Of a stretch of DNA of 64,000 nt, positions 1,987 through 63,683 are shown piece after piece (the first letter of the stretch is position 1; every line of letters begins with the position of its first letter). Position numbers and translations under genes: made by a program. The stretch comes from Salegentibacter sp. 24. GTDB lineage: Bacteria > Bacteroidota > Bacteroidia > Flavobacteriales > Flavobacteriaceae. Location of the stretch: the NCBI RefSeq assembly GCF_004362395.1, contig NZ_SNWE01000021.1, positions 16,907-80,906 of the forward strand, given 5' to 3'. The notes beneath the pieces were generated by a model. It made no database searches. It saw nothing but the letters and a program-made list of their open reading frames with translations, and was not told the origin of the DNA.

Positions 1987-3669
1987 ATGATAAATCTAAA
2001 ATTACTCGGTCGTACCCGTGCTCAAGAAAGTACCCACGCTATAGAACGCATGTATATAACGATGCGTCATCTTTTTAACCGTGGATTTTATAAACCTATG
2101 GGGGTTTCGGGAGAAACGCTTCGAGAAGCATTATTAATTCTTCGCCCCGAAATCTACGGTTCAATTGCCGATGATAAGGCAGAATTAAGTGGGTTACTCT
2201 ACGTGGTAGATCGATTACCAAAAGGAATTGAAGAATGTCGGTTTATTAATCTTACCAGCGATGAAGGTTATGGAAATTCACATTTTAAGCCCATTGTTCC
2301 GCCCAAACGTCGTCGTAATTGCTACAGGATTGACAATGAACAAATGAATATCGAAATCACGCGTGGCCGTTCTGAGATCTATGATATTCTTACCCATCTT
2401 ACATTTTTATTTGTAGAATCACATAAAATAATGCGTCGGGTTATAATAGATGAAGAAGGTAGTGTGACCCGTGACTGGCAGAAACTGGAAAAAGCTGTGT
2501 TGCAGGAGGAACCTCTAGACCAGGCGCAAAGGGAAATCGCTTTAACCCATACAGCCAATATTTTAGGCCGGACGTTTTATGAGGTTCAGGATATCTATCC
2601 AAAATTTTCTTTACCTGGGAATCCAGAACGCTTTTTAAATATAATTTACTGGTTAGGAAAACTTGCCATTGCAGAAACAGTTGAGAATAATAAAAGGATT
2701 ATCACTTTTAGTCCGGTTCTACGTGAACGTTTGGGTCACCATATTCACGGTGAGATCTGGGCCGATAATATTAAGCAACATCTCATTAAAGAAAATTTAA
2801 TGCACCGCCCGCTGCATATTATTAGTGCGAACATGCATAGTGTAATGAATACCCTTTATACTCCTTTAGCCTTAAAGGCCGATCTTAAAAAGAAGAAACC
2901 GCTGGAGATTTACGAAACCCTTAGTAATAGTGTTAACGGAGATTTACGAAGTAAAGTAATGAAGTCGGCTTTGGATAACGGGATGACGTTTTTGGAAGAC
3001 AAAAGTGGTACCAATATAGATGTCCAAATTTTTGATACTGCTAAATTAAACGGTAAATATGGCACATGGGATATTAAAACCGAAGAAAAAGCACCCGTAA
3101 TTATCGTGATGGATTATGCATTTGGAGAACAGGCTTACGAAACCATGGATGAGCTGCTAAAGCCATACAATTTTGAAGGTAATGAGATTAAGATGAACGT
3201 GGAATCGATTTCCATTATGGGAAAAGCGGGTATTCTGGAAGGAGGGAAAGGCGATATTATGATCCCCTCTGCTCATTTGTTTGAAGGGACTGCAGATAAC
3301 TATCCATTTAAAAATGAACTTAGCCGTGCCGATCTGGAAGGTAGTGGAATTGATATTGTAGACGGTGCCATGATCACTGTGTTGGGAACCTCACTTCAAA
3401 ACCGCGATATTCTTAAATTTTTTCACGATTCTACCTGGAATGTTAGCGGACTTGAAATGGAAGGTGCGCATTATCAGAAAGCCATCCAGGCCGCTTCCAA
3501 ATTAAGGGGTAGTATTAATAGCGAGGTAAAAGTGAGGTATGCTTATTACGCCTCTGATAATCCGCTAGAAACCGGTAGTACACTGGCCTCTGGCGGTTTG
3601 GGAACTACTGGTGTAAAGCCTACTTATTTAATTACCGAAAAAATTCTTGAACAAATTTTTAAATCTTAG
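1987..3669 (+). CDS. DUF6909 family protein with nucleosidase-like C-terminal half
   Basis: A 560-residue soluble protein that I recognise as the Bacteroidetes-specific DUF6909 family, of unproven function. The N-terminal half is helical and charged, without a recognisable motif. The C-terminal half (about 370-560) contains VIIVMDYAFGEQAYETMDEL and later GLEMEGAHYQKAI. These resemble the nucleotide-binding segment and the ribose-binding Met-Glu motif of the nucleoside phosphorylase/AMP nucleosidase superfamily. It follows the GH3 enzyme by 6 bp and precedes rfbC by 3 bp, which suggests one transcript. A role in nucleotide breakdown is inference from these motifs alone. Confidence 0.75.
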   Translation: MINLKLLGRTRAQESTHAIERMYITMRHLFNRGFYKPMGVSGETLREALLILRPEIYGSIADDKAELSGLLYVVDRLPKGIEECRFINLTSDEGYGNSHFKPIVPPKRRRNCYRIDNEQMNIEITRGRSEIYDILTHLTFLFVESHKIMRRVIIDEEGSVTRDWQKLEKAVLQEEPLDQAQREIALTHTANILGRTFYEVQDIYPKFSLPGNPERFLNIIYWLGKLAIAETVENNKRIITFSPVLRERLGHHIHGEIWADNIKQHLIKENLMHRPLHIISANMHSVMNTLYTPLALKADLKKKKPLEIYETLSNSVNGDLRSKVMKSALDNGMTFLEDKSGTNIDVQIFDTAKLNGKYGTWDIKTEEKAPVIIVMDYAFGEQAYETMDELLKPYNFEGNEIKMNVESISIMGKAGILEGGKGDIMIPSAHLFEGTADNYPFKNELSRADLEGSGIDIVDGAMITVLGTSLQNRDILKFFHDSTWNVSGLEMEGAHYQKAIQAASKLRGSINSEVKVRYAYYASDNPLETGSTLASGGLGTTGVKPTYLITEKILEQIFKS

Positions 3670-43197: not shown

Positions 43198-43731
43198 CTA
43201 GAAGTTCATACATGCGGTACAATCAGGTTCCCCGGTGAGTTGGCCGTTTTCATCAATTTTATATTTACAGCATTCATTAAATCGTTGTTTTAAATAGTCT
43301 TTTGTTCTCCTAATCCGCGCTTTTACATTAGGCAGACTAATATTTAATTCACGGGCGGTTTCGGTTTGGGTTTTACCTTTGAAGTAAACCAGATCAATTA
43401 CCGCCTTATAATGGGAAGGCAATTCTTCAATAAAACGATCGAAACAACAAATATCCTGGTATTCTTCAGCCACGGCTGTTTTTTCGCTTTCTAAATGGAC
43501 TACGTATTTATTTTCTCTTTTGAAATAATCATTAAGCTCATTTCGTACAATTTGAAATATCCAGGCCCTTACTTTTCCGGGACTCTCTAATTGATGCAGA
43601 TTCTTATGAGCTTTAAAAAAGGTATTCTGAAAAATATCTTTCGCGGCCGTTTTATTCTTAGCCTTTTTAAGGATAAAAAAATAAACTTCCTCACGATGCT
43701 TTCTCCATATTTCCTGCGTATCCATACTCAA
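43198..43731 (-). CDS. sigZ: ECF RNA polymerase sigma factor, SigZ-like
   Basis: A 177-residue sigma-70 family factor. Region 2 covers about 10-75 (AAKDIFQNTFFKAHKNL and VRAWIFQIVRNELNDYFKR), region 4 about 108-160 (IDLVYFKGKTQTETARELNI and SLPNVKARIRRTKDYLKQRF). The C-terminal tail has five Cys (CCKYK ... DCTACMNF), suggesting metal or redox sensing without a separate anti-sigma factor. The metallothionein-like gene 154 bp upstream on the same strand is a plausible target or partner. It is unrelated in sequence to the sigma factor at 46850. Confidence 0.9.
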   Translation of the reverse strand: MSMDTQEIWRKHREEVYFFILKKAKNKTAAKDIFQNTFFKAHKNLHQLESPGKVRAWIFQIVRNELNDYFKRENKYVVHLESEKTAVAEEYQDICCFDRFIEELPSHYKAVIDLVYFKGKTQTETARELNISLPNVKARIRRTKDYLKQRFNECCKYKIDENGQLTGEPDCTACMNF

Positions 43732-44153: not shown

Positions 44154-45149
44154 TTAATGGCGAGATATAAGATTGACTATTACCTTGATCATCATTTCTT
44201 TATCGCCTGGGTGGCTTTCAGCAATTAATAAGGTCAATGCCACCAAAGCATTGTCCGGGATTACTTTATTCCCGGTTTGGGTATAAAGTATTTGATTTCG
44301 GTCTAGAAACCAGACAAATAAAAATGCGGCAATTCGTTTGTTTCCATCGGAAAATGAATGATTTTTGACCACAAAATACAGCAAGTGAGCTGCTTTTTCT
44401 TCGGTTGTGGGATAGAGATCCTCCCCTCCAAAAGTTTGATATATATTCTCCAGGGAGCCCTTAAAGGAATCGTCCTTCTCACGGCCAAAAAGTCCTTCAA
44501 ATTTTGTTTGTCTTCCTAGTTCATCTATTGCTTTTCGCGCTTCATTGTAGGTGATTTGAAAAACTTCGCGACTTCCTTCCTCAGGTACCTCCAGCCGCTG
44601 GTGGTCATAATCATCCAATAAATCCAGGGCGCGAGAATACTGGGCAATAATTTTTATTAGTCCGACTGATTCATCAGTATTAAGATCGTGTTCAGAAATA
44701 ACTTTTTCCTGCAAACGAACTACGTTTTTTAGTTCGTCGAGCTGGCGGGTTTTTTCTCGAAGTATTTTTTCATTGATGGAATATCCCTGTAGTAAGAATT
44801 CCTTTAGAACTTTATTAGCCCATTGTCTAAATAGAATACCGCGTTTAGAGTTAACCCGATAACCCACAGATATTACTACATCTAAATTATAGTGCATTCT
44901 ATCTCTGGCTACTTCTCTCTTTCCTTCCCGTTGAACCGTTCGGAATTTCCGAACAGTTGAATTATCATCTAACTCACCAGATGAGAATATGTGCTTAATG
45001 TGTTCACTAATATTAGCCTTACTTGATTCAAATAATGCGATCATTTGAGCTTGGGTAAGCCAAACCGTTTCTTCTTCAAGTCTTACATCAATTTGAGTTT
45101 GCCCGGTCTCTGTTTTATAAATCAGTATTTGATCCTGTTGCGATTCCAT
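44154..45149 (-). CDS. rhuM: RhuM-Fic/DOC fusion protein
   Basis: A 331-residue protein. Residues 1-150 are the RhuM virulence-protein domain (EEETVWLTQAQMIALFESSK, RGILFRQWANKVLKEFLLQG). Residues ~190-325 are a Fic/DOC domain with HSFSDGNKRIAAFLFVWFL, a complete HxFxDGNKR catalytic motif. RhuM-type N-termini resemble phage KilA/ANT DNA-binding domains. The fusion is common in mobile islands and may act as a toxin or defence component; the target is unknown. It reads in the same direction as, and is downstream of, the dCas12f-like locus. Confidence 0.9.
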   Translation of the reverse strand: MESQQDQILIYKTETGQTQIDVRLEEETVWLTQAQMIALFESSKANISEHIKHIFSSGELDDNSTVRKFRTVQREGKREVARDRMHYNLDVVISVGYRVNSKRGILFRQWANKVLKEFLLQGYSINEKILREKTRQLDELKNVVRLQEKVISEHDLNTDESVGLIKIIAQYSRALDLLDDYDHQRLEVPEEGSREVFQITYNEARKAIDELGRQTKFEGLFGREKDDSFKGSLENIYQTFGGEDLYPTTEEKAAHLLYFVVKNHSFSDGNKRIAAFLFVWFLDRNQILYTQTGNKVIPDNALVALTLLIAESHPGDKEMMIKVIVNLISRH

Positions 45150-45299
45150 AATCCTTTCAGAATATAAATTATTAGTAGCTTCTTGATTTCGAATTGAATA
45201 TAAACATTTTAATTATAGGGTAGTTTTAGGGGGAGTAACAACTTAAGGCAAAATTTTCTCCATATGAATATTACTGATTTGCTATGCAGGAATATTTAA

Positions 45300-45372
45300 T
45301 TTCCTTTTAGAATTTCCCCTTAACTAGATTATTTAAGTGAGTGAGATTTCACCCCCACCAGTACAAGCTCAT
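45300..45372 (-). ncRNA. decayed third copy of the guide-RNA scaffold
   Basis: On the minus strand the region opens with ATGAG and CTTGTAC, keeps TCTCACTCACTTAAAT and then lacks the CATATACAACAAAG block found in the two good copies. It is preceded by a recognisable fragment of the dcas12f 3' end (about 45373-45424). It is best read as an older, degenerate unit of the same tandem array and is probably inactive. Confidence 0.5.
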
Positions 45373-45411
45373 AATTTAATCAAATAAGTACCGACCTTGT
45401 ATTTTATTTTG

Positions 45412-45541
45412 GTTATCAGTTCATAACCTTTGTTCCTTAAAACCTAAAAGGTTAATAGGGGAAGGCCTTTGTTGTATATGCTGTGTGCATTTAGTGAGTG
45501 CTATTAGGGACCTCACCTTACGGGTGTACAAGTACCCTCAT
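45412..45541 (-). ncRNA. candidate guide RNA 2 for the dCas12f-like protein (scaffold plus guide)
   Basis: On the minus strand the scaffold runs from ATGAGGG at 45541 to CCTTTTAGG at 45443, possibly to GGAAC at 45432. It is about 90% identical by eye to copy 1 at 45642-45738. It has an early hairpin (GGGT..ACACCC, with CACCCGTAAGGTG) and the invariant TAGCACTCACTAAATGCA and CAGCATATACAACAAAG blocks. The following sequence (AAAGGTTATGAACTGATAAC if the scaffold ends at GAAC) is a candidate guide. The guide boundary is uncertain because part of the sequence is shared with a dcas12f 3'-end duplication. Confidence 0.6.
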
Positions 45542-45608
45542 ATTCGAATTTTATCTACTATAGGTTCAATTCCGGTTTTGTCGAGCGTCATTTATTTTGG
45601 TTATCAGT

Positions 45609-45738
45609 CCATAATAATTCCAGTTCCTTTGTTCATTTAAACTTAAAAGGTTAATAGGGAAGGCTTTGTTGTATATGCTGCCTGCATTTAGTGAGTGCTA
45701 TTAAAGACCTCACCTTTCGGGTGTACAAGCACCCTCAT
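45609..45738 (-). ncRNA. candidate guide RNA 1 for the dCas12f-like protein (scaffold plus guide)
   Basis: Begins 9 bp after the dcas12f stop on the same strand. The scaffold runs from ATGAGGG at 45738 to CCTTTTAAG at 45642, or to TGAAC at 45631. It holds the hairpins GGGTG-CTTGTA-CACCC and CACC-CGAA-AGGTG and the same invariant blocks as copy 2. The downstream sequence (AAAGGAACTGGAATTATTAT) differs from copy 2 after the first five bases. A scaffold just 3' of the effector gene with a variable 3' end matches Cas12f/TnpB guide RNAs. Expression is unproven. Confidence 0.65.
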
Positions 45739-45746
45739 AAATTAAT

Positions 45747-46847
45747 TTAATCCACTATAAGTTCAATACCAGCTTTTTCGGCCTTGTATTTTATTTTGGT
45801 CATCAATTCGTAATAATTCCAGTTCCTTAAAATAAATCCGTCTTCTTTTTTGGCAATTTCCATTTTATCTTCCTGGTTTAATAAAATGAGTGTCCCCGCT
45901 TGTTGTTTAATACAAAAATCAATGAGCTTCCGGCTATATACATGCAAGCGATTACCTACATAGTTTTTTTCCTTTTCGTGGAATCTATCCACTGCTTTTG
46001 TTTTGCGTTTACGACCCTTTCCCGATCTGCAATAAGTAGCACCGTTTTGTGCCCTTTTTAGAGAAGACTGTATGGCAAGCCTTCTAAATAGAAATTCTTC
46101 TCGACTGCCAATACTAAGTTTTTCTTTACCGGATTTGACTATAATAGGATACTCCATAGATAAAGAAGCTTCTGCAATTATTTCCGGTTTCAGTTTATGC
46201 TTCTCTTTCTCAACCTCAAAAACGGCTAACCAATAAATTTTTTGATTTTTAAGTTGAAGTTTAGAGGCGCAAAGTTTGATTTGGCCGGCCACTACCTGTT
46301 CCAGTAGGCTTCGTTTATCGGTATAATCTTTTCCTAAATAAGCTTTCAAGGGAACGGAGAATAATCGAAAACAGAAGGTCTTTTTTTCTTCTTTATAACA
46401 TAAGCGCTGAATACCTCTCGTTCCAAAAGGAAAAGCGATATCCCTCCTAAAATTAGCCAGGGAGCGTTCCCCACTCCTATAAGACGATAGGTCATTCCTA
46501 AAGCTGCTCATTATATTATTATTCAGGTTGGATAGAATATTGGTAGGGATTTCCCCTTTAAAACGATCGGATACCACCCGGTAGGTGCAGTTGGTTTTTG
46601 AAAAATTGAGTATGCCGTCTTCAGCTTTTTTTTCATCCGCTAACCTATATTTTATTCTTTCCGATAAATAAAAGAATTCCTTGATCATTTCCTGTACGTA
46701 GAGATGTGCAACAATGAGATTAGCCGCCCTGTAGCTTCGGTTCTGCCAGCGGTACAGGGTCTCAAGAGCCTCCCTTTTTTCTTCTTTGGTGGGGGCATCC
46801 ACCTGCAGCTGGATTTTCCGGGTGAGTTTTATCGTTTCTTTTCCCAT
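45747..46847 (-). CDS. nuclease-dead Cas12f/TnpB-like RNA-guided protein (dCas12f), C-terminally truncated
   Basis: 366 residues. Family resemblance: the strand NQKIYWLAVFEVE (201-213) just before RuvC, the arginine-rich REEFLFRRLAIQSSLKRAQ (249-267), the bridge-like SGKGRKRKTKAVDRFHEKEK (275-294), HVYSRKLIDFC (302-312), and RNWNYYELMTKIKYKAEKAG (341-360). The RuvC-I Asp position reads EASLSMEYPIIV with no Asp, the RuvC-II 'vlE' position reads LILLNQ, and the protein stops at GIELIVD, exactly where the zinc ribbon and RuvC-III Asp should follow. So it should bind RNA and DNA but not cut. Its gene starts 2 bp after the sigma gene and is followed by the scaffold repeats. A TnpB-like repressor is the alternative reading. 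Confidence 0.8.
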   Translation of the reverse strand: MGKETIKLTRKIQLQVDAPTKEEKREALETLYRWQNRSYRAANLIVAHLYVQEMIKEFFYLSERIKYRLADEKKAEDGILNFSKTNCTYRVVSDRFKGEIPTNILSNLNNNIMSSFRNDLSSYRSGERSLANFRRDIAFPFGTRGIQRLCYKEEKKTFCFRLFSVPLKAYLGKDYTDKRSLLEQVVAGQIKLCASKLQLKNQKIYWLAVFEVEKEKHKLKPEIIAEASLSMEYPIIVKSGKEKLSIGSREEFLFRRLAIQSSLKRAQNGATYCRSGKGRKRKTKAVDRFHEKEKNYVGNRLHVYSRKLIDFCIKQQAGTLILLNQEDKMEIAKKEDGFILRNWNYYELMTKIKYKAEKAGIELIVD

Positions 46848-46849
46848 GA

Positions 46850-47632
46850 TTAAGCCGATTGTTGTTGTTCGTGTTTGAGCTGCATTAGTTTATAGGCCGC
46901 CATAAATTCCTTGTGAACTTCCTTTTGAGTAAGGTTCAGCTCCCGGGCAATATCCGCAAAGGAATATTGCTTTTCCGTACGCAGCTGTAGCACCTTTTGC
47001 TGTTCTCGGGTCATGGTAGTCTGAATCTTTACCGCCAACATCGGTCTTGGTTTAGCTTCAAGCGAACTCCCTTTATTAACAATATTCTTAATATCCTCAA
47101 TAGCACTTTTTATTTCGGTACTGGTTTTGTTGATACTGGTTCCCATCGCCTGGGCAATGGCCTTATACTGAAAACCGTGTTTTAAACAGAGTTCAATAAG
47201 TCGCCTTCTTTCACTGCTAAGCAGAGGAAGGATACGCTGAATTCGCTCAAAAGCTTTCTGTTCCGCTTCCTGGTCCAGTAAATGCCTATCTTTTTCCTCC
47301 GGATCATAACCGTGCATATAATCCTGGTAGTCCTTGTAATATTCTAACCTATTAATATTCCTGTGAAATTTATTCTTAGGTCGAGAGTAGTAGTATATAC
47401 ACTCAGTTTTCATCACATAACGAAGGAAAAAGTATATATGTTCCGGTTCTTCTATCCTATCCCTTTTCTTCCATAAAATGAGGAAAGTATCCTGAAGGAT
47501 GTTTTCTATGACGAATTCATCCTTTATAGTTTTCTTGCCCAACCAAAAGAGCCTGCGGTGATACCTGGCATAAATAAACTCCAAAGCATCAGGATGTCCC
47601 TGTTGTAATAATTCAAAAATACGCTGTAACAT
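46850..47632 (-). CDS. ECF-like sigma factor with additional C-terminal HTH, partner of dCas12f
   Basis: 260 residues, longer than the ~190 typical of ECF factors. Region 2 is at ~12-85 (HPDALEFIYARYHRRLFWLG, ENILQDTFLILWKKRD, FFLRYVMKTECIYYYSR). Region 4 is at ~128-186 (ERRRLIELCLKHGFQYKAIA, QAMGTSINKTSTEIKSAI). A further HTH follows at ~205-250 (TREQQKVLQLRTEKQYSFAD, IARELNLTQKEVHKEFMAAY), which may contact the dCas12f protein or DNA. The stop is 2 bp before the dCas12f start, implying co-translation. No anti-sigma gene is adjacent. In reported dCas12f-sigma pairs the complex recruits RNA polymerase to guide-specified sites. Confidence 0.85.
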   Translation of the reverse strand: MLQRIFELLQQGHPDALEFIYARYHRRLFWLGKKTIKDEFVIENILQDTFLILWKKRDRIEEPEHIYFFLRYVMKTECIYYYSRPKNKFHRNINRLEYYKDYQDYMHGYDPEEKDRHLLDQEAEQKAFERIQRILPLLSSERRRLIELCLKHGFQYKAIAQAMGTSINKTSTEIKSAIEDIKNIVNKGSSLEAKPRPMLAVKIQTTMTREQQKVLQLRTEKQYSFADIARELNLTQKEVHKEFMAAYKLMQLKHEQQQSA

Positions 47633-47768
47633 AAGCAGTCGCTTTTAGGTGGAGGCAAAAACCCCCAGAATTAAAATGGATTTAGCTTAAGCGAATTCTT
47701 ATAAGATATAAAGAGAAGATAGCTTTGAAAACAATTGAGAAGAATGCCTGTTTCCTACAAACAAAAAA

Positions 47769-47912
47769 GGCGTGGATACTCAACTTATAGCATCAAGGTA
47801 CTGGTATACCGCACGACAATAAGTAAGCCCACGCCCGGGTCGTGAGCATTTACACTCATCATCTCGTCGCTAAAAATTACCAGTTTTTGATGCGAGAATC
47901 AAAGCGAATGCT
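47769..47912. ncRNA. candidate structured element upstream of the sigma/dCas12f operon
   Basis: Noncoding segment with complementary blocks: GGCGTGG (47769-47775) with CCACGCC (47829-47835), and CTCGTCGC (47863-47870) with GCGAG (47892-47896) flanking AAAAATTACCAGTTTTT. Composition is GC-richer than the AT-rich surroundings. It could be a leader RNA of the sigma gene (minus strand), a separate small RNA, or a structured DNA site such as oriT. I cannot assign a known family. Confidence 0.35.
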
Positions 47913-47978
47913 TCTAATATTTTACTTAAAGAAGTTTCGCAAATATATTAATATGAGATAAATATAATAAAAATATTT

Positions 47979-48002
47979 TAATCTCGTCCGATCGAACGAG
48001 AT
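47979..48002. promoter_or_regulatory. 24-bp palindrome upstream of the HTH gene at 48034
   Basis: Arms AATCTCGT / ACGAGATT around CCGATCGA, which is itself near-palindromic (CGATCG). It lies 31 bp before the HTH gene start, in the divergent region shared with the sigma/dCas12f operon. A likely operator for the small HTH protein. Confidence 0.6.
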
Positions 48003-48033
48003 TCTTTTAAAAGTATACAATTTCTTTGTTAGT

Positions 48034-48297
48034 ATGGCAAAGGAAATCAATAAAGCTATTTGTGAGTTTATAACTGAAGAATGGATAAATCCATTTTTAG
48101 CCAAAGGAGGAACACAGGTAGGATTTGCCGACAATCATAACATTTTAGAAAGTACCGTACGTAAAATTAAGAACACCCCCAACTATCGAATTCCTGTAGA
48201 AACACTCTTCAAAATATGTCAAGAAAGACGAATAAGTGTTTCAGATTTCTTTAAACAACTTGAAAAAAAGTTTCCTGATTTGAAGATTGAAGAGTAA
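48034..48297 (+). CDS. small HTH-like DNA-binding protein
   Basis: 87 residues. The segment VGFADNHNILESTVRKIKNT resembles a HTH recognition unit, followed by ETLFKICQERRISVSDFFKQ, the pattern seen in XRE-like regulators of Bacteroidetes elements. A 24-bp palindrome lies directly upstream. It is divergent from the sigma/dCas12f operon, so it may control that operon and itself. Family assignment is tentative. Confidence 0.7.
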   Translation: MAKEINKAICEFITEEWINPFLAKGGTQVGFADNHNILESTVRKIKNTPNYRIPVETLFKICQERRISVSDFFKQLEKKFPDLKIEE

Positions 48298-55040: not shown

Positions 55041-56282
55041 ATGAACGAACAGATGCCGGAAAACTGGAAAACATATAAACTTGGAGAAATTGCTACACTA
55101 AGGAAACAGACGGTTCGGCCAAAAGATTTCAACGGTGAAAAGTATATTGGACTTGAGCATATAGGCCAGGGTGATTTTCTTTTAAATGGAATTGGAATAT
55201 CAAGCGATGTTACCAGTAATAAATTCAAATTTAAAAGCGGAGATATTTTATATGGAAAAATCCGACCGTATTTTAAAAAGGTTTATAAACCGACCTTTTC
55301 AGGAATTTGTTCTACAGATATTTTAATAATTAAATCATCTTCCGAAGATGCTGTAATCCAGGAATATTTATATCAATTAATAAAAACTCAGGCATTTACA
55401 GATAAAGCGGTAGAAACAAGTTCAGGAACTAAAATGCCAAGAGCAGATTGGAACAGTTTAGAGCAAGCTGAATTTATCTTTCCTCCTTTATCAGAACAAA
55501 AATCCATCGCCTCCATCCTTTCTGCTTTAGACGATAAGATCGAGCTCAACCTCCAAATGAACAAAACCCTGGAAGAAATGGCTATGGCTTTATACAAACA
55601 CTGGTTTGTAGATTTTGGGCCGTTTCAGGATGGAGAATTTTTAGATTCTGAATTGGGGAAAATTCCGAAGGGATGGGAGGTAAAGAGATTAGACGAATTT
55701 GCACTTAAAAAATCTGAGTCTTTTAATTTTAAAAATAAAGAAGATGTAGTATTTGTAAATACTGGTGATGTGCAAGAGGGAAGGTTTCTTCACTCCAACC
55801 GTCTGCCTAAAAAAGGACTTCCCGGTCAGGCAAAAAAGGCCATAGAAAAAGGAGATATTTTATACAGTGAGATTCGTCCTAAAAATAAAAGATTCGCATA
55901 TGTGAATTTTGATTCAGAGGATTATGTTGTTTCCACAAAATTTATGATAATCAATCCTAAAAGTAATATTCTATCAAAATTACTTTACCGCATTTTAACA
56001 ATGCAATCTACGGTGGATAATCTGAATTCAATTGCTGAAGGAAGGTCTGGGACTTTTCCACAGATAACTTTTGATGCAATAAGTGATTTAAAATTTATTT
56101 TACCTCCATTGGATGTTCAGGAACAATTCCAAGCAATCGTTGGTCCTATGGAATTGAAGCAGGATGAGCTTTATATTGAAAACCAAACCCTCACTCAACT
56201 CCGCGACACCTTACTTCCAAAACTCATCAGTGGGGAAGTCCGGGTAAAAGATGCTAAAAAAACTTTATCTGAAGTCTTATGA
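55041..56282 (+). CDS. hsdS: type I restriction-modification system, specificity subunit
   Basis: HsdS, 413 residues, with two target-recognition domains (about 5-150 and 205-370) and two long conserved helices. The central helix is visible as LSEQKSIASILSALDDKIEL, NLQMNKTLEEMAMALYKHWF, and the second as LDVQEQFQAIVGPMELKQDE. It defines the bipartite DNA site for HsdM and HsdR. It overlaps hsdR by 4 bp. The site cannot be predicted from sequence here. Confidence 0.95.
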   Translation: MNEQMPENWKTYKLGEIATLRKQTVRPKDFNGEKYIGLEHIGQGDFLLNGIGISSDVTSNKFKFKSGDILYGKIRPYFKKVYKPTFSGICSTDILIIKSSSEDAVIQEYLYQLIKTQAFTDKAVETSSGTKMPRADWNSLEQAEFIFPPLSEQKSIASILSALDDKIELNLQMNKTLEEMAMALYKHWFVDFGPFQDGEFLDSELGKIPKGWEVKRLDEFALKKSESFNFKNKEDVVFVNTGDVQEGRFLHSNRLPKKGLPGQAKKAIEKGDILYSEIRPKNKRFAYVNFDSEDYVVSTKFMIINPKSNILSKLLYRILTMQSTVDNLNSIAEGRSGTFPQITFDAISDLKFILPPLDVQEQFQAIVGPMELKQDELYIENQTLTQLRDTLLPKLISGEVRVKDAKKTLSEVL

Positions 56283-59272
56283 TAGAAATTACGGTTCAAA
56301 ATGCGGCAATTGAATATCTAAAAGACCTGGGCTACCAGCACCGGGAGGGAAATTCCCTAAACCGTGACCTTAAAAAGGTTGTGCTGGAAAAGGAGTTGAG
56401 GGATTTCCTGCTTTCCACCTATCCCGATGTTCCGGCTACCGCCATCAATGAAGCCCTGGCGGGTTTTACCCAACATTCCGGGATGGATTTAGACCACCGC
56501 AACCGTGATTTTCACCGTAAACTCACCCAGGGCATTTCGGTTTCCTGGAAAGATAAAAACGGCAAAGAACTGGCCAAACATATCTACCCCATCAATTACC
56601 GCGAACCGGAGCAAAACCAGTTTATCTGTGCAGATGAAGTAAAAGTAATCGGTAAAAACAGTCGGCGCGCCGATTTGGTGATCTTTATCAACGGCCTTCC
56701 GCTCATCGTTTTTGAATTCAAAAATATGTTTGATGCCGAAGTTGGCGTAGATAACGCCCACCGGCAAATTGGTCATTACCTGCAGGATATTCCGCAACTA
56801 TTCGATTTTAACGCTATCACCATCGTTTCAGACGGGATGCAAACTTTGCACGGGATGTATAACTCCTCTTTAAAATGGTTTGCCCCCTGGAAAAGTTTAA
56901 AGGGCGATGATATAAAACAGGAAACCGAGCTTCAGTTGGAAACTTTACTCAACGGCCTTTTCCCAAAAGCTACTCTTTTAAATTATATTCAGAATTTTAT
57001 TTTCCACGAAGACCATAATGGAAAGATCATCAAAAAAGGAGCTAAATACCACCAGTATTGGGGTATTCAAAAAGCAGTTGAAAGTGCGGTAGAAAATATT
57101 AAACCAAAAGGTGATGGTCGGCTGGGAGTAATCTGGCATACCCAGGGATCGGGAAAAAGTATTTCAATGGCCATCCTTACCGGGATCCTACGGCAAATGC
57201 CGGAAATGAAAAATCCAACGATAGTGATCCAGGTAGACCGTTCCGATCTCGACCAGCAGTTATATGAAAATTTTGTCCTGGCCAAAGATTTGGTAGGCGA
57301 TGTACAGCACGCTGATACTACGGAAGAATTAAGGAATCTGTTACATTCAGATGGGGGCGGGGTAATTTTTACCACCATTGAGAAATTCCGTTTAAAAGAC
57401 CTGGAAACAGGAAAAGAAACCCGGCACCCGGTACTTTCAGAAAGATACAACCTAATTATTATGGCCGATGAAGCCCACCGTACCCAATACGGGTTTCACG
57501 ATGGCGGCTTCGCACAAAACCTTCGAAGGGCTTTGCCCAATGCTTCCTTTATCGGGTTTACCGGTACGCCGGTAGACAGCAAAGACGCTGATACACAAAT
57601 GGTGTTTGGACCTACCCTTCACAGCTATGATATAGAACAGGCGGTTAAAGATGGCGCCACGGTGCCTATTTATTACGAGCCTAAAATGGTTCCTTTAAAC
57701 ATAAAAGCCGCCTATAGCGCGCAGCTCGATGAAATTGAAGACGATGAAGATAATCCTTCCAATGCTGTTTGGGCGGCCATAGAAGATGCCGCAGGAGCAC
57801 AGAGCCGGGTAGAAAAAGTGGCCGGGGATATCCTGGAGCATTTTCTGGCAAGAACGGCTACGTTGGAAGGAAAGGCGATGGTGGTTTGTATGAGCAGGCG
57901 TAATTGTGTAAAGATGTATGATGCCTTAACTGCTTTGGATGGCTGCCCTGAAATTGCGGTGATTATGACCGGAAATATCAGTAAAGATCCACCAGAATGG
58001 AATAAGCATATACGAACCAAAGATGCTATGGAAGCGATTAAAAAACGTTTCCGAAATCCTGCTGACCCTTTAAAGATGGTGATTGTACGGGATATGTGGC
58101 TTACCGGATTTGATGCGCCTATTATCCATACGATGTATGTAGATAAGATTATGAAAGGTCATAACCTTATGCAGGCCATCGCCCGGGTGAATCGGGTGTT
58201 TGAAGACAAACCCAGCGGCCTGGTGGTAGATTTTATAGGAATTTCGGGTTACCTGGCTGAAGCTACTAAAAAATATACTTCAGGTGGAGGGAGAGGAAAA
58301 CCCGCAGTAGATATAGAAATGGCCGTCAACTTATGTTTTGAGCAGCTGGAAACGGTAAAGGAATTGATGGGTGGTTTTAGTATGGAAGAAATCGACCAGA
58401 TGGATGATCGCGAAAAACTGCGTTGGTCTAAGAAAGTGATAAACGATCTACTGCAAACCGATCCTATAACCGATAACTTTCTACGGGAAGAAAGAAAATT
58501 GTCGGAGTTGGTGTCGATGACCAGCTCAGATAAGCGCATTTGGGAAATTCAGGATGATGTGGCCATTATTCAGAAAATAAGAAAGACAATCAGGAAGATT
58601 AAATTTCCGCCGGGCCCGCAGCGAGAGAAAAACGAGCGGATTAAAGATCTTATAAGCAAATCTTTGGAATCCCAGGAGATTGTAGACCTGGCAAAGATGT
58701 ATGACCTGGACAAAATTGATATCTCCATTATAGATGATCGCTTTCAGGCTACAGTAAAAGAAAAAGGAGATGAGAATGTAAAAATTGAATTGCTGCGGCG
58801 CATTATCAATGATGAGTTGCGGGTACGAATGCCCAAGAATATTAAAAAAGCCAGAAGACTCCGCGATGAGCTTGAAAAGATTTTGAGCAACTATCATAAA
58901 AACAGTCTGGATTCCATAGCAGCGATTAAGCATTTGCTTGATATAGCCGATGAGTTTCAGCAGGATGATATTAGAACCAAACAACTCGGTTTAACCGAAG
59001 ATGAACTGGCATTTTATGATCTGCTTTCTGCCAACGAAAAAATATTGAATAAAGCAGGGCCTATTCAGGATTTGGTGCATAAAGTAGTGGATTCGGTAAA
59101 GAAAAACCTTCAGCTAGATTGGACTAAAAAAGAAGATGCCAGGGCAGCTATTCGCCTGGCCGTAAAAAAAGAACTCCGCGGAAAAGTACCATTTTCAGAG
59201 CTGGATAATTTACTCAAGGAAGTGATTGAACAGGCAGAGGGGCAGTATAGGGATTGGCCGGTGGAGGCTTAG
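56279..59272 (+). CDS. hsdR: type I restriction-modification system, endonuclease/translocase subunit
   Basis: HsdR, 997 residues, an SF2 translocase that cuts DNA when blocked. Seen: the PD-(D/E)xK nuclease stretch RRADLVIFINGLPLIVFEFK near 130-150, Walker A HTQGSGKSISMAI near 288-300, the DEAH motif MADEAHRTQYG near 396-406, FIGFTGTPVDSKD, and the C-terminal helical region (~780-990). All motor and nuclease motifs are intact. It completes the operon hsdM-DUF4145-TIR-hsdS-hsdR. Confidence 0.96.
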   Translation: MIEITVQNAAIEYLKDLGYQHREGNSLNRDLKKVVLEKELRDFLLSTYPDVPATAINEALAGFTQHSGMDLDHRNRDFHRKLTQGISVSWKDKNGKELAKHIYPINYREPEQNQFICADEVKVIGKNSRRADLVIFINGLPLIVFEFKNMFDAEVGVDNAHRQIGHYLQDIPQLFDFNAITIVSDGMQTLHGMYNSSLKWFAPWKSLKGDDIKQETELQLETLLNGLFPKATLLNYIQNFIFHEDHNGKIIKKGAKYHQYWGIQKAVESAVENIKPKGDGRLGVIWHTQGSGKSISMAILTGILRQMPEMKNPTIVIQVDRSDLDQQLYENFVLAKDLVGDVQHADTTEELRNLLHSDGGGVIFTTIEKFRLKDLETGKETRHPVLSERYNLIIMADEAHRTQYGFHDGGFAQNLRRALPNASFIGFTGTPVDSKDADTQMVFGPTLHSYDIEQAVKDGATVPIYYEPKMVPLNIKAAYSAQLDEIEDDEDNPSNAVWAAIEDAAGAQSRVEKVAGDILEHFLARTATLEGKAMVVCMSRRNCVKMYDALTALDGCPEIAVIMTGNISKDPPEWNKHIRTKDAMEAIKKRFRNPADPLKMVIVRDMWLTGFDAPIIHTMYVDKIMKGHNLMQAIARVNRVFEDKPSGLVVDFIGISGYLAEATKKYTSGGGRGKPAVDIEMAVNLCFEQLETVKELMGGFSMEEIDQMDDREKLRWSKKVINDLLQTDPITDNFLREERKLSELVSMTSSDKRIWEIQDDVAIIQKIRKTIRKIKFPPGPQREKNERIKDLISKSLESQEIVDLAKMYDLDKIDISIIDDRFQATVKEKGDENVKIELLRRIINDELRVRMPKNIKKARRLRDELEKILSNYHKNSLDSIAAIKHLLDIADEFQQDDIRTKQLGLTEDELAFYDLLSANEKILNKAGPIQDLVHKVVDSVKKNLQLDWTKKEDARAAIRLAVKKELRGKVPFSELDNLLKEVIEQAEGQYRDWPVEA

Positions 59273-62446: not shown

Positions 62447-63652
62447 TTACTGCAACAATAATTCACTGGCTTCATCCAGTATGGCAGTATCCAGCTCTTT
62501 TAAATAAGCTTTGGTGGTTTTTACATCCTGATGGCCTAAAGATTCACTTATTATATCGGTTCCTGCCCCTTTTTGTTTTAAGCAGTTGGCGAAGCTATGT
62601 CTGGCAACATAACTAGTAAGGGGTTTATCAATTCCGGCAAGAATTGCTAATTCCTTTAAATCCTTATTAAACTTGCTCAGGGTTTTTCTTTTTCTATCAT
62701 TTAATTGAGTGGGGGTGAGGTTTTCCCTAAGGAGTATTGGAAAAATATATGGTCTTTTATTTTTACGGTAATAGTCAAGTATTTCTTTTACCGGGGGCAT
62801 AATTTTTATGATGAAATTTCCTTTGGTTTTGGATCGCGTGTAATGAATTCTGTCGCCGGAAACATTACTCCACTTGAGTCTCATCATATCGGCGAAATTC
62901 ATTCCTCTGGTATAAAAGCTAAAAATAAAATAATTTCTACTGTTGATTAAATGAGGTTTATCACTCAAATCTAGATTTTGAAGGTTATGAACTTCTTCAA
63001 TGTTTAGAGCTTTTTTAATTGCTTTGCCTTTTAGTTTCGAAATTTTATAGTGTTTAAAAGGGTAAAGTTTTTCGTCTATTATACCTCTTTTTATTGCCAC
63101 GTTGAAAATAGCCCGTATAGCCCTCATTTTAACCCCAATACCTCCTCCGGTTCCGCCTTTATTGCGAAGGTGTACTTCATATTTATCTAAAAAGGTAGGG
63201 GTCACTTCGTAGAAATGTAAAGATTTTTGTTTCACGAATCTTTGTACCGAATTTTTAGTGTGGTGATAAATGGCTGCATTGCTCATTCTCCCTGCTTCTT
63301 TAAATTCATCAATTTGCTCTTGCCAAAATGCGAATATATTTGAAGCTTCAGGATTTGATTGTGTTCTAAATTTTCTTTCAAAATCATTTAGGCTATAGAA
63401 ATCCTGGTTCATTTCCAGTTCACTTATGACTTCTAAAGCACGATCTTCAAATTTTCCTATTAATCGATTAGACTTAATTTGTTGGGTAAATTTCTTATTA
63501 AAGCGTCCTAATTTAGAATCCCATTCATTTAAATTAGCTTCGAATGGAGTACTGAAGAATTTAGATTTACGATCTTTGGTAACCCTTAAAAGAACTGGGT
63601 ATTTTCCATTTTTTAGTGCAGTTTTACGGAGGGTAGTTTTTATGGAAGCCAT
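62447..63652 (-). CDS. int: tyrosine-type site-specific integrase of the island
   Basis: About 401 residues from ATG 63652 (MASIKTTLRKTALKNGKYPV, the usual start of Bacteroidetes integrases; the frame is open to 63676). An Arm-type N-terminal domain and SAM-like core-binding domain (~100-200) precede the catalytic domain. The active-site residues are visible: the first Arg in FYTRGMNFADMMRLKW, ARHSFANCLKQKG (HxxR), LGHQDVKTT (His) and the nucleophile in KAYLKELD. It reads inward from attR and should catalyse integration at the tRNA 44-bp site. Confidence 0.95.
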   Translation of the reverse strand: MASIKTTLRKTALKNGKYPVLLRVTKDRKSKFFSTPFEANLNEWDSKLGRFNKKFTQQIKSNRLIGKFEDRALEVISELEMNQDFYSLNDFERKFRTQSNPEASNIFAFWQEQIDEFKEAGRMSNAAIYHHTKNSVQRFVKQKSLHFYEVTPTFLDKYEVHLRNKGGTGGGIGVKMRAIRAIFNVAIKRGIIDEKLYPFKHYKISKLKGKAIKKALNIEEVHNLQNLDLSDKPHLINSRNYFIFSFYTRGMNFADMMRLKWSNVSGDRIHYTRSKTKGNFIIKIMPPVKEILDYYRKNKRPYIFPILLRENLTPTQLNDRKRKTLSKFNKDLKELAILAGIDKPLTSYVARHSFANCLKQKGAGTDIISESLGHQDVKTTKAYLKELDTAILDEASELLLQ

Positions 63653-63683
63653 AGTTTTATTTTTAGATTTCCGCAAATTTTAT

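Follow-up and report, generated by a model that had tools for sequence, protein, structure and literature searches.

A sigma factor-dCas12f gene pair with tandem guide RNAs and a bistable leader in Salegentibacter: a candidate RNA-guided switch for nutrient importers

The gene pair and its orthologues

Here, we analyse a stretch of 64,000 nucleotides (nt) from Salegentibacter sp. 24 (assembly GCF_004362395.1, contig NZ_SNWE01000021.1, positions 16,907 to 80,906), referred to as the window. On its minus strand, a gene for an extracytoplasmic function (ECF) type sigma factor is followed after 2 bp by a gene for a nuclease-dead Cas12f (dCas12f). Guide-RNA units lie downstream of this pair and a structured leader lies upstream of it, see Table 1. 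The genome (G000) comprises 4.15 Mb in 61 contigs; handles with C, G and L denote contigs, genomes and loci, respectively.

In the PDB, the sigma factor has a single match, chain C ('RpoE') of 9n9q (E 7e-90). For dCas12f, a search with a profile of 42 sequences places the 'Nuclease-deactivated Cas12f' chains of 9n9c, 9n9m, 9n9o and 9n9q on top over the full length (E 9.4e-216), followed by Cas12f and TnpB-type chains. The solved relative 9n9c has 365 residues, a length like that of the window protein (366 amino acids, aa). The family model NF040570 (guided_TnpB) is matched with a score below its cutoff. In the alignment to the active Cas12f 9nzo, the RuvC-I Asp (GVDLG) is replaced by Ser and the RuvC-II Glu (MER) by Asn. 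The C-terminus shows a weak match to the first 20 of the 60 positions of TNB, the Cas12f zinc-ribbon model (E 0.11), and the protein stops there. Structurally, 9n9m is ranked first by Foldseek and VIA-align; the predicted model has a mean pLDDT (predicted local distance difference test) of 62.4, and fold-level matches, mainly of residues 141-366, were used. Judged from these comparisons, the window pair is an orthologue of the solved dCas12f-guide RNA-RpoE complex.

A first-pass annotation, made from the sequence alone, had described a 366-aa Cas12f/TnpB-like protein without its RuvC-I/II acids and ending before the zinc ribbon, encoded 2 bp after a sigma gene and next to guide RNAs, as an RNA-guided transcription system. 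The gene arrangement, the two lost acids and the early end of the protein are all confirmed, the structure comparison it had proposed recovers the Cas12f fold, and the core of the proposal is supported by the orthology together with the scaffold found in the related loci (below). It had seen the pair and the array and missed the four paralogues, the targets and the leader upstream of the sigma gene. RNA-guided transcription of this type is already structurally known, and the orthology is in itself nothing new.

Tandem guide RNAs

The guide-RNA scaffold, GAGGGTGCTTGTACACCC..GGTGAGGT..ACTCACTAAATGC..GCATATACAAC, is present in 78 of 79 related loci, and in the remaining one (L170) the sequence ends 14 bases past the gene match. 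The covariance model R2 was built solely from scaffolds of other species, and at the scores it gives (Table 1) the two window scaffolds are therefore not chance matches. They correspond to the two near-identical structured repeats noted earlier on the same strand. The further claim that these repeats have unlike 3' ends is refuted: downstream of the scaffold end, GCATATACAAC, unit 1 reads AAAGCCTTCCCTATTAACCTTTT and unit 2 reads AAAGGCCTTCCCCTATTAACCTTTT, two single-base insertions apart. Hence, the array has more than one guide, as had been claimed, in its anatomy of two units, but the guides are two variants of one sequence and not distinct. Rfam 15 has nothing for the scaffold or the leader, neither at the gathering score in the whole window nor at E-values up to 10 in 45200-48100; for the leader, the window copy was scanned.

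Counting scaffolds of at least 30 bits in the 79 loci (at least 20 bits in the genus set), 55 loci contain one guide unit, 16 two, six three and one five. The units stand in tandem in 21 of the 79 loci, i.e., in 21 of the 23 with several units, while in L113 and L122 the units lie apart. The Salegentibacter sp. 24 genome contains five full dCas12f copies, in the window (C21) and on C38, C32, C30 and C4, with protein identities of 72-100%. In all five, the sigma gene precedes dCas12f.

Table 1. Features of the window (positions of the 64,000-nt stretch).
Feature	Position	Strand	Evidence or remark
NikA/MobC-like and relaxase genes	41.2-42.7 kb
Second ECF sigma gene, SigZ-like	43198..43731
RhuM-Fic protein gene	44154..45149
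Decayed third unit: dcas12f 3' end and broken scaffold	about 45330..45446 (approximate ends)	minus	read from sequence
Guide 2, AAAGGCCTTCCCCTATTAAC	45451..45470	minus	13/16 match to susC UTR site
Guide-RNA scaffold 2	45471..45544	minus	covariance model R2, 86.6 bits, E 1.7e-17
Degenerate copy of dcas12f 3' end before scaffold 2	45545..45620 (approximate ends)	minus	read from sequence; such copies in C29 and C32 arrays found by search
Guide 1, AAAGCCTTCCCTATTAACCT	45648..45667	minus	sequence directly after scaffold end
Guide-RNA scaffold 1	45668..45741	minus	covariance model R2, 89.9 bits, E 2.6e-18
Nuclease-dead Cas12f, 366 aa	45747..46847	minus	partner is the ECF sigma factor
ECF-type sigma factor, 260 aa	46850..47632	minus	Sigma70_r2 and r4 domains
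Bistable leader, terminator-like end CCACGCCTTTTTT	47763..47906	minus	copies before two paralogues 88-96% identical in DNA; compensatory changes in both folds
Predicted target, G + GGCGTGGGCTTACTTA, of C4 and C30 guides	47820..47836	minus	1 mismatch to C4/C30 guide pattern
Small helix-turn-helix (HTH) protein gene, divergent from leader	48034..48297	plus	weak HTH_26 match, E 0.0043
Type I restriction enzyme R subunit	56279..59272
Phage-type integrase	62447..63676

A bistable leader shared with susC genes

The leader is about 145 nt long. In the window it reaches -44.5 kcal/mol with a minimum free energy z-score of -3.45, and forcing the terminator hairpin costs about 6 kcal/mol. An alignment (A2) of 35 of the 42 copies, five from this genome and 30 from other species, with seven near-copies left out, reveals two mutually exclusive folds, both with compensatory changes and one of them terminator-like. 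Fold A has stems at columns 25-31/119-125, 43-47/106-110, 53-58/97-103 and 66-72/85-91; 96.1% of 875 cells are paired, against 25-48% in slid versions, ten pairs are changed on both sides, and none of 500 shuffles is as good on four of five measures. Fold B has stems at 3-6/56-59 and 11-15/47-51 and a long hairpin at 82-102/138-158, followed in many rows by a T run. Here, 98.0% of 905 cells are paired, against 39-59% in slid versions, eight pairs are changed on both sides, and the shuffles are as good in 0/500 cases on four measures and in 1/500 on the fifth. Columns 85-91 and 97-102 belong to both folds. Permuted partners are as good in 0/5000 cases for stem b (34 of the 35 leaders, L108 left out) and likewise for stem d (33 leaders, L112 and L123 left out).

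The leader precedes three of the five sigma-dCas12f operons of this genome (C21, C30 and C32) and two susC genes (C3 and C31); the C3 copy was found by a DNA search and the C31 copy through the guide pattern. Both genes encode SusC/RagA receptors according to the family model, and on C3 susC is followed by a SusD-like protein. The covariance model R1 finds these five leaders and no sixth in the genome; all five are rows of R1, and the 156.8 bits of the window copy are by construction. Among the 60 genomes searched, most of them drafts and this one included, R1 finds the leader in 24, several of which also supplied rows of the model. In this set, 14 genomes have a guide RNA match.

Within the genus there are 32 leaders, not counting one overlapping reverse match: 13 precede sigma-dcas12f, 17 a long susC-like open reading frame (ORF) and two, both weak matches, other genes. 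Beyond the two cases of our own genome, susC-like is read from translations. The distance to the ATG is 111-132 nt for sigma-dcas12f and 396-655 nt for the susC-like ORF. In genome G033, the next ORF after five of the six leaders (L308-L313) has 110-122 aa, most with a KKHCK motif. Weak matches of 27-38 bits with other genes downstream (L290, L291, L318, L319 and L321) hint at a wider RNA family. For Flavobacterium psychrophilum, 64 structured 5' regions are listed in the excerpt of PMC9723704 used here.

Guides matching the leader

The 79 loci contain 110 guides. The most common class, starting with (G)(G)CGTG, has 59 members by a strict and 61 by a loose definition, and 31 guides are unclassed. 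For the commonest guide, GCGTGGGCTCTCTTAT, the leader contains a matching block of 16-17 nt, on the strand used by both folds. When 59 guides and 35 leaders are compared, the agreement starts at the scaffold end, extends over 16-17 nt and drops thereafter; position 11 is variable, and the flanking agreement is limited to a few scattered positions. A G precedes the matched block in 37 of 37 cis leaders, and the 35 aligned leaders have a G at position -1 without exception and at position -2 in 89% of cases. The strict guides occur in the registers GGCGTG, GCGTG and CGTG, never GTGG. From the first matched base to a conserved TAAG there are 45-49 nt in 30 of the 35 leaders.

In the genome of the window, the pattern of the C4 and C30 guides matches the C32 leader without mismatches and the window leader with one. 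Allowing up to three mismatches, there are 29 further matches against 21 in the control; they include the C31 leader (two mismatches), the C30 leader (three) and the arrays. In addition, 16 of 17 nt of C30 guide 1 agree with the variable part of the C3 susC leader, where a G precedes the matched stretch. Both a guide and a leader are present in 20 loci, and in ten of these the two agree within one mismatch over 15 nt. For class-2, class-3 and unclassed guides no cis match with fewer than three mismatches in 17 nt was found in the 79 loci.

The window guides and the susC UTRs

Two motifs are seen in the susC untranslated regions (UTRs) of the genus, GTGAATTAGCC... at roughly 119 nt and AAAGCCTTCCCC..GATTGG at roughly 80 nt upstream of the ATG, and CCTTCCC is exact in 13 of 21 susC UTRs among those listed. 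Fourteen guides of our genome were compared over 16 nt with three of its susC UTRs, using 200 shuffles each. C29 unit 1 matches a susC UTR at 14/16 positions after a G, with 0/200 shuffles as good, and C32 units 1 and 3 at 13/16 each after a G, with 1/200 each. As expected, no match in the three UTRs is seen for the four guides of class 1 (C30 and C4). At the site 80 nt before susC, window guide 1 agrees at 12/16 positions (14/200 shuffles as good, preceding base C) and window guide 2 at 13/16 (0/200, preceding base A; 12/16 on the opposite strand).

Genome-wide and outside the array, guide 1 (G plus 17 nt) has no site with fewer than three mismatches; with the G and up to three mismatches in 18 nt there are eight matches against ten for the reversed control. 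The exact motif AAAG(N)CCTTCCC has nine matches in the genome, two of them in the array, and three of the other seven lie about 80 nt before susC. The C29 guides give 49 matches with up to three mismatches against 54 in the control; of the two non-self sites that they match with a G at two mismatches, one is the C14 susC UTR. The genome search for guide matches beside a 5' G, suggested in the first-pass annotation, is successful for the guides of the paralogues, at leaders, but not for the window guides, where guide 1 was searched genome-wide and guide 2 by its exact core and in the three UTRs. From the sequence similarity, the probable target of the window guides is the site 80 nt before susC, which is the weakest link of the interpretation.

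Proposed mechanism

In the dCas12f family, the complex with the guide RNA binds DNA with a 5' G, the sigma factor recruits the polymerase, and transcription starts at a fixed distance from the R-loop, with no need of a promoter motif. Hoffmann and colleagues have reportedly described the mechanism of dCas12f-sigmaE RNA-guided transcription. We suggest that the window pair likely switches on SusCD nutrient importers and its sister operons by RNA-guided transcription. In this mechanism, dCas12f and a guide would bind the leader DNA beside a 5' G, and the sigma factor would bring RNA polymerase to the bound leader. Transcription would then start about 45-50 nt downstream, past the 5' arm of the terminator. 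With a start at TAAG this arm would be left out, so the shortened transcript could not form the terminator and attenuation would be bypassed. The C4 and C30 guides would target the window, C32 and C30 operons through their leaders, giving a cross- and auto-activating circuit of paralogues. Each of the listed sites, in leaders or UTRs, is located upstream of the start codon, with the guide reading as the coding strand.

It can further be speculated that the sigma-dCas12f pairs with tandem arrays start transcription inside bistable attenuators and override a cis-acting RNA switch, that susCD and the pairs' own operons, sharing the leader, form a self- and cross-activating regulon for nutrient import, and that new guides arise by duplication of the 3' end of the effector gene. 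We regard this wider scheme as possible rather than probable.

Several observations weigh against the proposed switch. On the fifth measure of fold A, pair types, 156/500 shuffles are as good; moreover, the shuffles ignore relatedness and the structures were derived from the same sequences, and related sequences can beat shuffles without any structure. The leaders of L124, L159 and L165 have no T run. The C4 and C38 operons of our own genome have no leader, nor do 33 of the 53 commonest-class loci within the locus examined, some of these being incomplete. In G033, six leaders precede other genes and no guide RNA was found there; therefore the leader seems to have another regulator or job too, and it is not exclusive to the sigma-dCas12f system. 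Conservation of the G before the block may reflect its pairing in the hairpin. Two non-leader places (C6 and C15) match the C4/C30 pattern at two mismatches with a G. None of the genome's five leaders is matched by C30 guide 2. Guide-leader pairs in cis have on average 1.6 mismatches per 15 nt versus 1.87 for swapped pairs (p 0.035, 20 loci); swapped pairs being nearly as good, the commonest guide is simply conserved. A claim of guide-target coevolution was rejected, as this p is too weak. At the UTRs, 68/200 shuffles are as good as C32 unit 2 and 31/200 as good as C29 unit 2, and the searches above found no 5'-G target for the window guides. Finally, the start-site distance is carried over from the family.

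Alternative explanations

Published dCas12f-sigma systems reportedly activate one susCD-type operon, and the window pair could be an ordinary, single-purpose member, its extra units and paralogues being duplication debris. The near-copy guides and the decayed third unit of the window fit this, as do the C38 and C29 arrays, which an insertion sequence has probably disrupted, and the 55 of 78 loci that carry one unit. We nevertheless consider it unlikely, given that the three good scaffolds of C30 carry different guides, one matching a susC leader at 16/17, and that tandem units occur in 21/79 loci.

Guides of the commonest class pair with the 3' arm of the window leader at -17.8 to -21.0 kcal/mol, compared with -21.2 kcal/mol for the leader's own 5' arm. 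The guide might therefore act on RNA, as an antisense antiterminator pairing with the terminator 3' arm, with dCas12f merely an RNA chaperone; a trans-acting small RNA on susC mRNAs, FopS, is known in Bacteroides (excerpt of PMC11697453). However, according to the title of 9n9m the structure of the orthologue includes target DNA in a partial R-loop, the guide registers are such that a G remains in front of the matched block, window guide 1 pairs poorly with the 3' arm (-4.0 kcal/mol), and guides of classes 2 and 3 run in the sense direction of the susC UTR. We give this explanation little credence.

That leader-bound dCas12f is instead a repressor, blocking transcription like TldR and tuned by sigma, is hardly credible: the target does lie inside a folded leader, and nuclease-dead TnpB homologues (TldR) do repress (excerpt of PMC13418256), but dCas12f forms a strict two-gene operon with sigma, orthologues of both stand in the same PDB entry, and at the listed sites the guide has the sense of the coding strand upstream of the start codon.

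Relation to known systems

The window genome differs from the described dCas12f-sigmaE systems by its five paralogues, its tandem arrays and guides to the bistable leader of sigma operons and susC, whereas the leader targets conform to the 5'-G motif of those systems. The dCas12f-sigmaE (RpoE) systems of Flavobacteriia (9n9c, 9n9m, 9n9o and 9n9q) have the same protein sizes, a downstream scaffold and a 3' guide. With CRISPR-Cas12f (type V-F), the window protein shares the fold and an alignment over the RuvC domain, and the repeated guide units recall a small array. However, its RuvC is not active, the catalytic acids being absent in comparison with 9nzo, and the units here contain a scaffold, accompanied in part of the arrays by copies of the gene's 3' end. 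Attenuators and riboswitches likewise have two exclusive folds, one terminator-like, whereas here the switching strand doubles as the predicted DNA target of a guide RNA, and no ligand is known. TldR is a lone effector that is not known to have a co-encoded sigma factor; TldR represses, while the window system co-encodes sigma 2 bp upstream. Like dCas12f, TldR is a nuclease-dead, RNA-guided DNA binder exapted for transcription control, as described in the excerpt of PMC13418256. FopS and GibS of Bacteroides are also multicopy small RNAs at 5' regions of susC homologues, but in the excerpt of PMC11697453 they are post-transcriptional repressors that base pair near the start codon and involve no Cas protein.

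If the proposed switch is true, natural RNA-guided transcription would amount to a programmable choice of importers, tied to an RNA attenuator and to its own control. The concrete guide-target pairs given here are open to testing. The leader, present in 24 of 60 genomes, is a candidate new family of bistable RNA, its newness being judged against Rfam 15, and 3'-end duplication would be a route by which an exapted Cas effector comes to several guides without CRISPR adaptation. The tandem arrays, paralogues and leader targets may already be described in the dCas12f literature; the primary dCas12f-sigma paper was not among the literature found.

Paralogous arrays and genomic surroundings

In the window, C32 and C29 arrays, the later units are each preceded by an approximately 80 bp copy of the dcas12f 3' end. 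The C30 array retains little beyond the scaffold, which suggests, at the level of sequence, that the coding part of this copy is dispensable; its three units have good scaffolds (91.4, 85.3 and 88.6 bits with R2) and differing guides. Insertion-like sequence interrupts the arrays on C38 and C29 at nearly the same scaffold position, and the first unit of C38 and the C29 array are likely one locus split by a mobile element. Orphan scaffolds without dCas12f are seen on C14 (L270:2148-2217 and 2538-3635) and C29 (L013). The genes beside them have similar N-termini; one is an AAA ATPase according to Pfam and the other was compared by eye. In the C4 and C38 operons, the leader is, by eye, replaced by a common upstream region with a reading frame of about 70 codons.

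The array is followed by a RhuM-Fic protein gene in the window and likewise in the C30 paralogue (L011:5806-6801), thus a larger module has been copied. A second, SigZ-like ECF sigma gene lies near the window array. The locus had been placed on a mobile island in the first-pass annotation: mobility genes, NikA/MobC-like and relaxase, are indeed close. An integration site at the single tRNA was rejected, no second copy of its 3' end occurring in the window. The phage-type integrase and the R subunit of a type I restriction enzyme are in keeping with a mobile region. The small HTH protein encoded next to the leader has relatives in 23 of the 125 loci and regions examined.

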